Source of the DNA: an uncultured Cytophagales bacterium
GTDB lineage: Bacteria > Bacteroidota > Bacteroidia > Cytophagales > UBA9547
Direction: 5' to 3'
NCBI GenBank assembly: GCA_945957555.1
Contig: CAMFLX010000010.1
Coordinates: forward strand, 1-64,000
Length of the DNA: 64,000 nt
Shown: piece by piece, positions 38,325 through 64,000 of the stretch
How positions within the stretch are numbered: position 1 is the stretch's first letter
Layout of the letters: every line of letters begins with the position of its first letter
Notes under the pieces: model-generated
The model's database searches: none
Told to the model about the DNA's origin: nothing
The model's input: the letters and a program-made list of their open reading frames with translations, nothing else
Program-made: the position numbers and the translations under genes

Positions 38325-38362
38325 GTTATTTTTTAAGACTTTAATTTCAGACTTTAGACATA

Positions 38363-38380
38363 AGACACAAGAGTCAAGAC
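38363..38380. repeat. Short intergenic repeat shared with the murD 3' end
   Basis: AGACACAAGAGTCAAGA (38363-38379), upstream of tex, recurs base for base at 63750-63766 at the end of murD. It belongs to a simple (A/C)AAGA(C/G)(T/A)C-like word family. No four-helix-bundle gene adjoins this copy. Confidence 0.7.
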
Positions 38381-38486
38381 GCAAGAACTGGTTTTACTGC
38401 CAGTCCCTTACTTTTCTTGTGCATAAGGACTTCAAAGATAAAAGTATTGTGGTGGATTTGGAAGGAAGAGGCGGAAATCTTTGTGA

Positions 38487-58772: not shown

Positions 58773-60241
58773 AGACATTAAAGGACATATTGACCTCGAT
58801 AAAGCCAATAGAAGTTATTGGTGATACGAGTATTGCTGTAAAAGACATACAGTTCGACAGCCGCAAGGTGACCGAGGGGTCTATGTTTGTGGCTACCGTA
58901 GGCACACATGTGAATGGTCATGATTTCATAGCTAAAGCCGTGGCATTGGGTGCCAAGTCTGTGGTGTGTGAACGATTGCCTGCGGATTCTTTCGTAGGAG
59001 TGAGTTTTGTAGTAGTTGAAAATTCTGCAAAGGCTTTAGGCTTCTTGGCAGCATCATTTTTTGGCAATCCTTCTGAGAAGCTCAAAATCATTGCGGTAAC
59101 AGGTACTAATGGAAAGACTACCACTGCAACGCTTTTATTCAAACTATTCAGAATGTTGGGTTATAGTTCTGGCTTACTGTCTACCGTTGAAAACAAAATC
59201 AACGATGAGGTAATCCCTGCTACACATACCACTCCTGATGCGGTGGCGATGAACCAACTTATGGCCAAAATGGTCGAGAAGGGTTGCACACATTGCTTTA
59301 TGGAAGCTAGTTCTCATGCAATAGTGCAAGAACGCTTGGCAGGAATCAAGATCGATGGCGCTATTTTTACCAACATCAGTCACGATCATTTGGACTACCA
59401 CGGTACTTTTGACAACTACATCGCCGCAAAGAAGAAGTTGTTTGACGAATTGCCTGCTACTGCTTTTTCACTCATCAATGCTGATGATAAAAGGAAGAAG
59501 GTAATGGTGCAGAATTCTGTATCACAAGTGCATACGTTTGGCTTGAGAATCCCTTCCGATTTCAAAGGGAAAGTTTTAGCTAATACTTTACAAGGCATAG
59601 AAATGGATATCAATGGTCAACAGGCATGGTTCCAGTTGATCGGAGATTTCAACGCCTACAATATTTTGGGCATTTATGGTGCTGCGATATTATTGGGTGA
59701 AGACAAGACTGAAGTTCTGACGGCTCTCTCAGCGATTACTCCAGCATCGGGGCGCTTTGAACAGATTCATTCCAAAAATGGCATTACGGCTATTGTGGAT
59801 TATGCACATACACCTGATGCAGTTAAAAATGTACTGGAGACACTTCAAGAGTTCCGAAAGACCAAGACAAAGATCATCACAGTGATTGGCTGTGGAGGGG
59901 ATAGGGACAGGACGAAAAGGCCCTTGATGGCAGAGATAGCTTGTAAACTCAGTGATAAAGTCATTTTGACCTCAGACAATCCAAGGTCAGAAGAACCACA
60001 AATGATCATAAATGAAATGATGCAAGGGGTGGGGCCTGTGAACTACAAAAAGTCATTGTCGATCTTGGACAGAAAGGAAGCGATCAAAACGGCAGTATCC
60101 TTTGCTGAGGAAGGCGATATCCTTTTGATAGCAGGCAAAGGCCACGAAGACTACCAAGAAATCAAAGGCGTGAAATATCCTTTTGACGATCGGGTGGTGG
60201 TGAAGGAAATGTTTGAACTCTTTTATAATGATGAATTATAA
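58769..60241 (+). CDS. murE: UDP-MurNAc-tripeptide synthetase
   Basis: A 490-residue Mur ligase: FDSRKVTEGSMFVA near residue 30, ATP loop GTNGKTTT (about 112-119), and the DNPRSEEP motif (about 408) whose DNPR is diagnostic of meso-diaminopimelate addition. The start is TTG at 58769, overlapping the ftsI stop (TTGA), and no ATG is available. The last codons and stop (GAA TTA TAA) are part of an 18-bp inverted-repeat arm of the following cassette. Confidence 0.95.
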   Translation: MKTLKDILTSIKPIEVIGDTSIAVKDIQFDSRKVTEGSMFVATVGTHVNGHDFIAKAVALGAKSVVCERLPADSFVGVSFVVVENSAKALGFLAASFFGNPSEKLKIIAVTGTNGKTTTATLLFKLFRMLGYSSGLLSTVENKINDEVIPATHTTPDAVAMNQLMAKMVEKGCTHCFMEASSHAIVQERLAGIKIDGAIFTNISHDHLDYHGTFDNYIAAKKKLFDELPATAFSLINADDKRKKVMVQNSVSQVHTFGLRIPSDFKGKVLANTLQGIEMDINGQQAWFQLIGDFNAYNILGIYGAAILLGEDKTEVLTALSAITPASGRFEQIHSKNGITAIVDYAHTPDAVKNVLETLQEFRKTKTKIITVIGCGGDRDRTKRPLMAEIACKLSDKVILTSDNPRSEEPQMIINEMMQGVGPVNYKKSLSILDRKEAIKTAVSFAEEGDILLIAGKGHEDYQEIKGVKYPFDDRVVVKEMFELFYNDEL

Positions 60242-60638
60242 ATTTTAAATTATAAATGAAGGAGAATCCTATACTCGATAAGACCTTTGAATTTGCTTTA
60301 AGCACTATAGGACTTTACAAATTCATGGTTGAAAAGAACGAATATGTTCTTTCAAAACAGGTATTGAGGAGCGGAACGAGTATCGGGGCAAACGTTGAAG
60401 AAGCTATTGCTGCGATATCAAAAGGGGAGTTTATCGCAAAAATGTCAATTGCCAATAAAGAAGCCAGAGAAACGAGATATTGGCTGAGGCTTTTAGAAAA
60501 AAGCGAACTGGTTAAGATTGATGTAAACAGGGAATTGAAAGAAGTTACTGATATAGTCAACATTCTGACTAAAATCATAAAAACTTCTCAAGATAATTTA
60601 GAAAACAAGAATTGAAAAACATTTAAAATTTATAATTC
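60233..60638 (+). mobile_element. Candidate four-helix-bundle cassette 1 (between murE and mraY)
   Basis: Perfect 18-bp inverted repeats, GAATTATAAATTTTAAAT at 60233-60250 and its complement at 60621-60638, bracket the gene at 60256-60615. Beyond them TTATAA words continue the symmetry imperfectly. The left arm contains the murE stop. The gene reads in the operon direction and leaves mraY intact 25 bases further on. Arms and frame are seen directly; that this unit moved is inference. Confidence 0.6.
60256..60615 (+). CDS. Four-helix-bundle protein, 23S rRNA intervening-sequence (S23) family, copy 1
   Basis: A 119-residue helical protein with the family pattern: an N-terminal helix, then SKQVLRSGTSIGANVEEAIAA (equivalent of QxxRAxxSIxxNIAEG), KMSIANKEARETRYWLRLL, and a final helix. 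The family is named from proteins encoded inside spacers of fragmented 23S rRNA genes and shares its fold with Avd of diversity-generating retroelements. It is the most divergent of the three copies here. Start 14 bases after the murE stop. Function of the family is not established. Confidence 0.9.
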   Translation: MKENPILDKTFEFALSTIGLYKFMVEKNEYVLSKQVLRSGTSIGANVEEAIAAISKGEFIAKMSIANKEARETRYWLRLLEKSELVKIDVNRELKEVTDIVNILTKIIKTSQDNLENKN

Positions 60639-60662
60639 AACACTTATAATTATTTAAAAAGC

Positions 60663-61889
60663 ATGTTGTATTACTTATTCGAATATTTGGACAAACATTA
60701 TGACTTCGTAGGAGCTGGCTTGTTCAAGTATATTTCTTTCAGGGCATTCATGGCAGTGATTTTATCACTTATCATTGGTGCAATCTTTGGCAAAAAGCTC
60801 ATCAGTTACTTGCAAAAACAACAGATCGGTGAGTCTATCAGGGATTTGGGCTTACAAGGCCAAATGGAAAAAAAGGGCACACCGACTATGGGCGGTCTTA
60901 TTATCATTGGGTCTATCTTAATCCCTGTATTATTGTTTGCTAAAATCACTAACATATATATTGTGATCTTGGTTGTGACAGTGATCTGGCTAGGTCTGAT
61001 TGGCTTTTTGGATGATTACATCAAAGTGTTTAAGAAAAACAAAGAAGGCCTTGCTGGTAGGTTTAAAATCGCCGGTCAGATCATCATAGGGGTTTTTGTA
61101 GGCTTATCACTTTATTTCAATAAGCATGTCTTGGTAAGAGAGCCACTACCGCCATCCAAACAAAAAATGGAGATGGTAAACGGTGTTTCAGTCTTGAAGA
61201 CTTATGTGAATGTAAAATCTACCGCTACTACTATTCCATTTGTAAAGGATAATGAGTTTGACTATAAACATTTGGTGAAGTGGTTCGGTATGGAGGATTA
61301 CTTATGGGCTGTATATACACTCATTGTGATTTTCATCATTACTTCAGTGTCAAATGGTGCTAATATTACCGATGGCATAGATGGACTTGCTGCGGGTACC
61401 TCGGCAATCATAGGAATTGTCATTGCTATTTTTGCTTATGTATCAGGGAATACCATATTCTCCAACTATTTGAACATCATGTACATTCCACACTCGGGTG
61501 AACTGGTGATTTTCTGTGCGGCTTTTGTTGGTGCTTGTATAGGGTTCCTTTGGTATAATACATATCCCGCACAGGTTTTTATGGGCGATACTGGGAGTTT
61601 AATGTTAGGAGGAACCATTGCTACGCTCTGTCTCTGTGTGAGGAAGGAATTGTTGATTCCCTTGTTATGTGGAATTTTTCTGATAGAAAATCTATCAGTG
61701 GTCATACAGGTATCTTATTTTAAGTATACCAAAAAGAAATATGGTGAAGGTAGACGCATTTTTAAAATGTCTCCACTGCACCATCATTATCAAAAGTCAG
61801 GGTATGCTGAGCCCAAAATCGTTACCAGGTTTTGGATCATCGGGATTCTCTTGGCAGTAGTAACATTGTTGACATTGAAAATTAGATAA
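60663..61889 (+). CDS. mraY: Phospho-MurNAc-pentapeptide transferase
   Basis: A 408-residue membrane enzyme with about ten hydrophobic segments, [17 protein letters not shown] and [12 protein letters not shown] (catalytic acidic residues), and a C-terminal [11 protein letters not shown] motif. It makes lipid I. It is longer than E. coli MraY (360) because of a loop after the fourth segment (about 155-205), usual in Bacteroidota. ATG at 60663. Confidence 0.96.
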
Positions 61890-61900
61890 ATAATTAAGTT

Positions 61901-62379
61901 GTACGTGTAATGTGTTAAGTGTAACGAAATGCAGGATTTCAGAAAGTTGAAAGTTTGGGAGAAAAGTCATCAGTTTACTCTTGATGTTTACAAGATCACC
62001 AAGGATTTCCCAAAGGATGAACTATATGGACTTGTTTCTCAAATGAGGAGGGCAGCTTCTTCGATAGCACTTAACATCGCCGAAGCAACAGGTAGGATGT
62101 CTGATGCTGAAAATATGCGATTTTTTGTAATCGCTCTGGGTTCGGTTCAAGAAAGTAGCTATTGTTTGATTCTAGCGAAAGACCTTGAATATATTTCAGT
62201 AGAGGAATGTAATATGCTTAATGACGATTTAGAGCACGTGAAGGCAATGCTCTTGAAAATGGTAAATATTTTAAAAGAAAGAATAAGCTCTGAAAAAGAG
62301 AAAACAAAATGACCCAAAAGTCAAAAAATATTGAAGAAACGAAAAAGGTCACACGTACTACGTCACACGTATCACATTT
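61901..62379 (+). mobile_element. Candidate four-helix-bundle cassette 2 (between mraY and murD)
   Basis: The left arm (61901-61925, GTACGTGTAATGTGTTAAGT onwards) and right arm (62348-62379) are imperfect inverted copies sharing TACGTGT and GTGT(A/G)AC words. They bracket the gene at 61929-62312. The right arm lies inside the murD reading frame and codes for its N-terminal extension. The word family is the same as in the gene-less element at 56543-56665. Confidence 0.55.
61929..62312 (+). CDS. Four-helix-bundle protein, S23 family, copy 2
   Basis: A 127-residue protein, classic family member: FRKLKVWEKSHQFTLDVY at the start, YGLVSQMRRAASSIALNIAEATGR in the middle, and a helical end rich in Glu and Lys. 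It resembles the partial copy at 63771 more than copy 1. Its TGA overlaps the murD ATG (ATGA at 62309-62312), so murD translation is now coupled to this gene. Confidence 0.93.
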   Translation: MQDFRKLKVWEKSHQFTLDVYKITKDFPKDELYGLVSQMRRAASSIALNIAEATGRMSDAENMRFFVIALGSVQESSYCLILAKDLEYISVEECNMLNDDLEHVKAMLLKMVNILKERISSEKEKTK

Positions 62380-63769
62380 AGTCATTCTTGGTGCTGGTGA
62401 AAGCGGAACAGGGACAGCGCTCTTGGCAAAAGCCATGGGTTTTGATGTTTTTGTTTCAGATATGGGTGCGATTGCTGATAAGTATAAAAAAATACTTGAG
62501 GACAATGGTATTGCCTATGAAGAAGGTCAGCATACGGAAGCTAAAATATTAAACGCCGATGAGGTTGTGAAAAGTCCTGGGATCCCAGACAAGGCACCGA
62601 TCATTCAAGCTTTAAAAAAGAAAAAGATCAAGGCGGTTTCCGAAATTGAATTTGCAGGCAGATACACCGCTGCGAAAAAGGTGTGTATTACAGGGACTAA
62701 TGGTAAAACCACTACGACCCTATTGGTATATCATATTCTCAAAAAAGCAGGTTTCAATGCGAAACTGGCAGGGAATATTGGAGAGAGCTTTGCTAAACAA
62801 GTTTTAGAGGAGAGTCAAGACAGCAACTCAACACCCAACACTCAAAACTCAGAACTTATCTACGTACTAGAATTGAGTTCTTTCCAATTGGATGGGATGT
62901 TTAAGTTCAAAGCTGATATCGGGATATTGACGAACATTACGCCAGATCATTTGGATAGGTATGACTACAAAATCGATAAGTACGTGGCTAGTAAGTTTCG
63001 GATCATTCAAAACATGGACGAAAACTGCACCTTTATCTACGGTATTGATTCGGAGTTGATTGAAAACAATTTGTTTGATGTAGATACCGATGCAGAAGAA
63101 CTGCCCTTCAGTATCTATCCAGACGAGTTTGATGGAGCTTGTGGTGATGAAGAGGGTATAACAATTCAAATTGGAGAAAAGGAATACTTGATCGATTTGA
63201 AAAAATCAGTGTTGAAAGGACAGCACAATCTTTACAATACTATGGCAGCGTCATTAGCAGCTATCAAGTTAGGGGTAGACGTGAAGACGATAGAAGCTGC
63301 TTTGGCCGACTTTCAGAACGCTGACCATCGTATGCAGTTGGTGGCAGAGATTGATGGGGTGAAATACATCAATGACAGCAAAGCCACCAATGTAGACAGT
63401 GCTTGGTATGCTTTGGATGCTTACAAAGAGCCGATCGTTTGGATTGCTGGTGGTACTGACAAAGGTAATGACTATAAAGCATTGTTTGATGTTGTAAAAG
63501 GCAAGGTGAAAGCCTTGGTTTGTATGACTAAAGATAGTGAAAAATTGGAAAAAGCTTTTAAAGGTTTAATCCCAATTATCAAAAAGTCCGAAGATGTGAA
63601 AGAAACAGTACAGTTGTGTGCAGATCTGGCAGAAAAGGGGGACATAGTTTTACTTTCTCCATGTTGTGCAAGCTTCGATCTTTTCAAGAACTACGAAGAC
63701 AGAGGGAAGCAGTTTGCTGCGGCAGTTTTAGAATTAGATACAAGAGTCAAGACACAAGAGTCAAGATAA
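62309..63769 (+). CDS. murD: UDP-MurNAc-alanine-D-glutamate ligase
   Basis: A 486-residue Mur ligase: LVILGAGESGTG (normally at the very N-terminus, here from about residue 24), ATP loop GTNGKTTTT (about 130), VLELSSFQLDGM, and NDSKATNVDSAWYAL near 355. It is about 40 residues longer than I expect for the family (about 445). The surplus is an N-terminal extension, an insertion just before YVLELSSFQ, and a C-terminal tail, and each corresponds to repeat-like DNA. The catalytic core is intact. Confidence 0.95.
   Translation: MTQKSKNIEETKKVTRTTSHVSHLVILGAGESGTGTALLAKAMGFDVFVSDMGAIADKYKKILEDNGIAYEEGQHTEAKILNADEVVKSPGIPDKAPIIQALKKKKIKAVSEIEFAGRYTAAKKVCITGTNGKTTTTLLVYHILKKAGFNAKLAGNIGESFAKQVLEESQDSNSTPNTQNSELIYVLELSSFQLDGMFKFKADIGILTNITPDHLDRYDYKIDKYVASKFRIIQNMDENCTFIYGIDSELIENNLFDVDTDAEELPFSIYPDEFDGACGDEEGITIQIGEKEYLIDLKKSVLKGQHNLYNTMAASLAAIKLGVDVKTIEAALADFQNADHRMQLVAEIDGVKYINDSKATNVDSAWYALDAYKEPIVWIAGGTDKGNDYKALFDVVKGKVKALVCMTKDSEKLEKAFKGLIPIIKKSEDVKETVQLCADLAEKGDIVLLSPCCASFDLFKNYEDRGKQFAAAVLELDTRVKTQESR
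62812..62855 (+). repeat. Repeat-like insertion inside murD
   Basis: A purine/CA-rich simple stretch (GAGTCAAGACA, then ACTCAACACCCAACACTC and so on) encoding about 15 Ser/Asn/Thr/Gln-rich residues. It shares the 11-base word GAGTCAAGACA with the repeat at the murD end (63744-63754). It lies in frame in a surface loop position between GESFAKQV and VLELSSFQ, where other MurD proteins have only a short link. Confidence 0.55.
63741..63766 (+). repeat. Repeat at the murD 3' end, left flank of cassette 3
   Basis: Two tandem copies of CAAGAGTCAAGA separated by CA, coding for the MurD tail (TRVKTQESR). The inner 17 bases equal those upstream of tex at 38363-38379. The next gene starts 5 bases later; the matching right flank, if any, is past the window. 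Confidence 0.7.
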
Positions 63770-63770
63770 G

Positions 63771-64000
63771 ATGGGGCATAATTTTAAACAACTCAAAGTA
63801 TGGCAAATAGTAATGGATCATGTGGTGAAGATCTATAATGAAGCACAGTGTTTGCCAGAAAAGGAGAAGTTTGGATTATATGCTCAGCTCACTCGATCTG
63901 CGGTTTCAATAGCTTCGAACATAGCTGAAGGTTCTGGAAGAAAAACTGATAAGGACTTTGGTAATTTTTTGAATATGGCTTTGGCATCAGCATTTGAAAA
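63771..64000 (+). CDS. Four-helix-bundle protein, S23 family, copy 3 (cut by the window end)
   Basis: The first 76 residues of a third family member: FKQLKVWQIVMDHVVKIY, YAQLTRSAVSIASNIAEGSGR, DFGNFLNMALASAFE. The ATG lies one base past the murD TAA. It is close to copy 2 in the LKVW and SIASNIAEGSGR motifs. The frame is open to the end of the window; ftsW would be expected next in the cluster. Confidence 0.92.
   Translation, partial: MGHNFKQLKVWQIVMDHVVKIYNEAQCLPEKEKFGLYAQLTRSAVSIASNIAEGSGRKTDKDFGNFLNMALASAFE

Follow-up and report, generated by a model that had tools for sequence, protein, structure and literature searches.

Probable replacement of the murD start by a heptad-framed FHB cassette in an uncultured Cytophagales bacterium

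In the stretch of DNA analysed here (the window: 64,000 nucleotides, positions 1 to 64,000 of contig CAMFLX010000010.1 of an uncultured Cytophagales bacterium), the start of murD was most probably replaced by insertion of a cassette that carries a gene for a four-helix-bundle protein (FHB; PF05635 / 23S_rRNA_IVP) between two heptad arrays, an N-terminal extension of MurD coming in part from the right array; we put the probability of this reading, in which the cassette is one of five in the operon and belongs to a widespread class, at roughly 85%. The genome has six FHB genes, five of which lie in this operon, one between each of murE, mraY, murD, ftsW, murG and murC (Table 1). The locus would be a concrete case of an inserted element that captures an essential gene's start codon, adding residues to the gene product while the predicted fold is unbroken.

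Table 1. Features of the murE-murD part of the operon, in positions of the window
Feature	Position	Strand	Evidence
Cassette 1 left heptad array (AATTATA type), reaches into murE end	60221..60257	+	lag-7 21/28; inverted partner 60621-60651
FHB1 gene (23S_rRNA_IVP / four helix bundle)	60256..60615	+	PF05635 E=4e-22; TIGR02436 5e-27
Cassette 1 right array	60621..60659	+	inverted partner of left array
mraY	60663..61889	+	TIGR00445 E=1e-100
Cassette 2 left heptad array	61896..61926	+	period 7; five G at exact 7-nt spacing
FHB2 gene, intact, 127 aa	61929..62312	+	PF05635 E=3.7e-38
murD	62309..63769	+	TIGR01087 E=4.7e-111
murD start codon, ATGA overlap with FHB2 stop	62309..62311	+	ORF positions
23 codons ahead of LVIL (MTQKSKNIEETKKVTRTTSHVSH)	62309..62377	+	MurD alignment; pLDDT <50 for residues 1-17
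Cassette 2 right heptad array, translated as VTRTTSHVSHL	62348..62380	+	period 7 P 2e-4; ~17 other genome copies
Heptad array inside murD (ACTCAAC type), encodes SNSTPNTQNS loop	62821..62865	+	lag-7 21/28; loop in alignment; pLDDT 54, residues 171-180
Cassette 3 left heptad array (CAAGAGT/CAAGACA), forms MurD C-terminus DTRVKTQESR	63738..63768	+	heptad array; word family dispersed in genome
FHB3 gene	63771..64000 in window, to 64136 of contig	+	PF05635 E=3.8e-24, in-window part

Origin of the MurD N-terminus

The murD product scored 372 bits against TIGR01087 (cut-off 212) in a profile search and was modelled by AlphaFold with a pTM of 0.84 and an intact fold; its identity as MurD is clear. 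A preliminary description of this DNA had counted about 23 extra residues before the motif LVILGAGESG and an ATG overlapping the FHB stop as ATGA, and both observations held: the MurD of the nearest relative, G004, which is 73% identical and begins MKRLVILGAGESG, has three residues (MKR) before LVIL, other aligned relatives mostly have three to four, and the FHB2 stop TGA (62310-62312) is overlapped by the murD ATG. The in-frame open stretch begins only five codons upstream of this ATG, and it holds no other ATG, GTG or TTG before LVIL (62378), so that no standard internal murD start is available.

Comparison with G004 also bears on the proposal that the insertion had replaced the original start, which it supports. 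G004 has no FHB gene anywhere in the cluster, its MurD begins MKRLVIL, and its gaps are compact: 52 nt between mraY and murD against 419 here, 10 against 400 between murD and ftsW, and 14 against 416 between ftsW and murG. This nearest empty site is from a genome outside the genus. An FHB gene in the mraY-murD slot was found in one of 88 sampled loci, the present one. In the comparison of MurD N-termini, which the preliminary description had advised, the FHB-free G004 lacks the extension. In Mucilaginibacter flavus (L087), where no FHB gene occupies the slot, MurD begins with an unrelated N-terminus from a different heptad array, which indicates that arrays alone can rebuild an N-terminus. Judged from these alignments, the start of murD was replaced, although its original start could have been lost in an event separate from the insertion.

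The DNA just before LVIL had been attributed to the inverted right arm of cassette 2. This is correct from 62348 onward (GTCACACGTACTACGTCACACGTATCACA, 62348-62376), where period, dispersal and a modest inversion agree. The first 13 extra codons (62309-62347) lie between the FHB2 stop and the right arm and do not belong to it; the arm supplies the last ~10. Both arms of cassette 2 have a 7-nt period (left P 4e-4, right P 2e-4), and in the left arm G recurs at 61898, 61905, 61912, 61919 and 61926. Their inverted similarity is modest but above chance by the shuffle-based P values (0.004 against mononucleotide and 0.011 against dinucleotide shuffles), and among 675 other pieces of 80 nt none equals it. 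Scored more strictly, cassette 2 taken singly narrowly misses the 95th percentile of the cross-pair controls (21 versus 22), so the case rests on period and dispersal besides inversion. A degenerate pattern of the right arm had 21 genome matches at ~18 places, compared with none for the reversed-pattern control; the right arm thus belongs to a dispersed repeat family, and the MurD N-terminus contains dispersed repeat DNA. That the extension is instead native MurD sequence that drifted, resembling an arm by chance, is hardly credible: the length of the MurD N-terminus does vary in Pedobacter and Mucilaginibacter and the inverted similarity by itself is modest, but drift would leave to coincidence the period in both arms, the ~17 dispersed copies with none in the control, the compact site in G004 and the same outcome at MurG, which here has a TTG start and an array-encoded N-terminus (MEERNKNTVSDKRSTENGQLKTDHCRLIISGGG versus MAIKVIISGGG).

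In the AlphaFold model residues 1-17 (pLDDT <50) and 171-180 (~54) are poorly predicted and the remainder well predicted; these two segments are the array-rich stretches, and the second, the SNSTPNTQNS loop, has an array without an FHB gene. The extension therefore probably amounts, in the model, to some 20 extra disordered residues on an otherwise normal, intact fold.

Insertion and initiation at murD

We propose that the junction between mraY and murD received a cassette composed of a left heptad array, an FHB gene and an inverted right heptad array, and that murD lost its own ATG in the process, by removal or displacement. The frame running back from the LVIL codons through the right array would then have reached the ATG at 62309, which became the present start. 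Between the arms there is only the FHB ORF, which exceeds the curated cut-offs clearly (PF05635, 130.4 versus 33.8 bits; TIGR02436, 125.1 versus 24 bits), and no transposase gene, which sets cassette 2 apart from an insertion sequence. Such an outcome appears unusual for the class, since read-through of the right array is rare: the N-terminus of the next gene is read from it in only two of 87 clear cases, plus MurD (a third flagged locus, L285, is ambiguous), and the downstream gene starts after the array in 75 of 87. The notion that the right array usually becomes the next N-terminus was accordingly rejected. The Cas4 protein of Anabaena sp. 90 has its start within the right array of an FHB element.

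Initiation at 62309 could occur by termination-reinitiation from FHB2, by a direct start at an A-rich, open site, or by both. The preliminary description had MurD synthesis depend on ribosomes that have finished the FHB gene. Under such strict coupling, termination on FHB2 followed by reinitiation would be the sole source of MurD, and the cassette would be indispensable, with an addiction-like hold on an essential gene. Overlaps of the ATGA type couple translation in those bacteria and archaea where this has been tested (PMC6728339), and the overlap here is of that type; among the 16 cluster starts computed, however, that of murD is the richest in A (0.65) and by prediction the least paired (0.66 unpaired). 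It has A at -3, -6, -12 and -13, positions discussed as initiation determinants in Flavobacterium johnsoniae (PMC6847099) and favouring independent initiation in Bacteroidota, and few FHB loci have an ATGA overlap with the following gene (4 of 164 in all). Strict coupling is therefore rather unlikely, and a mixture of reinitiation and direct initiation is most likely.

The cassettes might alternatively act as intervening sequences in mRNA, their arms pairing and RNase III excising the FHB segment as in 23S rRNA, so that the mur messages would be separated. The Coxiella 23S IVS is an established case of an FHB/S23p ORF with excision by RNase III (PMC4990558), and the RNA of cassette 3 is predicted to form a long stem with its two arms paired at the base (z -7.9), but no folding with closing arms was seen for cassette 2 (z -1.3), where a cut in the right arm would moreover sever the murD start. 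G.U and A.C mismatches between arms are equally frequent over 76 cassettes (96:95), so that selection for RNA pairing is not visible. We regard excision as improbable, more so than strict coupling.

FHB cassettes and heptad arrays as a class

Beyond the window the contig continues with FHB3, ftsW, FHB4, murG, FHB5 and murC (63771-67385; L037 7772-11386). Among themselves the five operon FHBs share 18-46% identity, against 51-61% with FHBs of other genomes; being closer to FHBs elsewhere than to one another, they were most likely acquired separately, as far as protein identities can tell, and tandem duplication was ruled out as their origin on the same figures. Between murC and ftsQ (L037 12751-12863) lies an inverted pair that is heptad-like but has no FHB gene, either an empty cassette or a remnant. 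Elsewhere in the order, two or three FHB cassettes lie ~1.7-2.3 kb apart (L168-L173), and one genome of the same family has a ~600 nt heptad tract of GTAATGT and ATTCATA types downstream of murD (L041 12984-13603).

In the set of 164 FHB loci the gene is typically flanked by degenerate 7-nt repeats in inverted arrays, most of which have four to five units (98 of 142 arrays). In 86 of 122 loci, nearly all from the order, a locus's own inverted flanks exceeded the 95th percentile of cross-pairs, compared with eight in the mirror control. The flanks of these 122 loci match themselves at lags 7, 14 and 21 (z 31/25, 15/19 and 16/12), and the FHB gene bodies of the same set have no lag-7 peak; the weight of the statistics is reduced by non-independent clades and by reliance on shuffles for P values. 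The arrays have a common stranded consensus, A-G-T-w-n-(not G)-n, from which the cassette 2 heptads (ACGTGTG type) deviate (percentiles 52 and 4). Held-out Bacteroidota reproduced both the period (z 10.9) and the consensus (profile 3.33 versus 1.67 +- 0.28). Cyanobacterial plasmids reproduced the period (z 16.4) and the inversion but do not share the common AGT consensus. On such plasmids FHB genes are interleaved in operons between cas6 and cas4 or cas10 and cmr3 (L268, L274, L281). Heptad words are more alike in similar FHBs: at >=65% identity, in different contexts, the mean likeness is 0.747 (15 pairs, few clades), compared with 0.459 overall and 0.732 between the two arms of one element.

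Within this genome, the word family of cassette 3 has 82 matches versus none in the control and the AGT heptad family 48 versus three; a control pattern of period 8 gave no usable contrast, since it is also matched by tracts of the AGTT tetramer. Of 35 distinct sampled repeat places (three off-target or cut), 29 are not within an ORF of 100 aa, and for 10 an inverted partner lies no more than 700 nt away. One solitary array of the cassette 3 family stands at 38342-38392 of the window, upstream of a Tex-like gene, with no FHB gene nearby.

The solved structures 2gsc and 2rld, both of FHB relatives, contain five chains each, and a homopentamer was described for XCC0516 (PMC4990558). Pentameric relatives, together with arrays of about five units, invite a binding model, and the analogy suggests that FHB proteins may bind heptad arrays. 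More specifically, a five-fold FHB ring might recognise about five 7-nt repeats, each lineage having its own word, inverted at gene ends and also present in solitary arrays genome-wide; we offer this tentatively, as possible but somewhat against the odds. If true, repeats and proteins would make up one genome-wide system. It would account for the surplus of heptameric repeats long noted in bacteria, for which reports give no established cause (PMC4692102), and would now and then rewrite the termini of essential proteins, MurD and MurG among them. The wider pattern connects the FHB family with a class of heptad repeats, and makes heptad arrays a candidate target for a very common bacterial family of unknown function.

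Comparison with known systems

The 23S rRNA IVS of Coxiella and Leptospira, with its S23p/FHB ORF (PF05635), has the same protein family and inverted ends, and in Coxiella GACAGAT heptamers lie directly before the S23p ORF (PMC4990558). The present cassettes differ in lying in mRNA operons, cassette 2 between mraY and murD, with no Rfam family in the region and no rRNA family in L037 or L054, and in having degenerate heptad arrays as arms, with no sign of RNA-stem selection. The Avd model of diversity-generating retroelements gave a weak NCBIfam match (NF033474, 23.9 bits against a cut-off of 80), well outside that family. FHB genes were absent from the phage records.

Intergenic heptameric repeats, namely STRR of cyanobacteria, TAACTGA of Beggiatoaceae and GGGNATC of Xanthomonas and Nostoc, are likewise 7 nt long, dispersed and intergenic. 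On the FHB heptad profile TAACTGA (reverse complement) and CCCCAGT reach the 95th-96th percentile, the Xanthomonas and Coxiella heptads only the 71st-73rd. Our literature search found no paper tying intergenic heptameric repeats to FHB genes or inverted pairs, and none linking FHB genes to heptad arrays in general.

In the REP/REPIN-RAYT systems the protein genes are few and are flanked by inverted copies of a short genome-dispersed repeat. FHB genes likewise stand between inverted copies of a dispersed short repeat, but with no Y1 transposase or other nuclease, and with heptad arrays rather than palindromic hairpins as arms. The Coxiella IVS heptamers were already published; what is new here is the clustering of five of six FHB genes in the mur operon and the heptad-framed FHB class.
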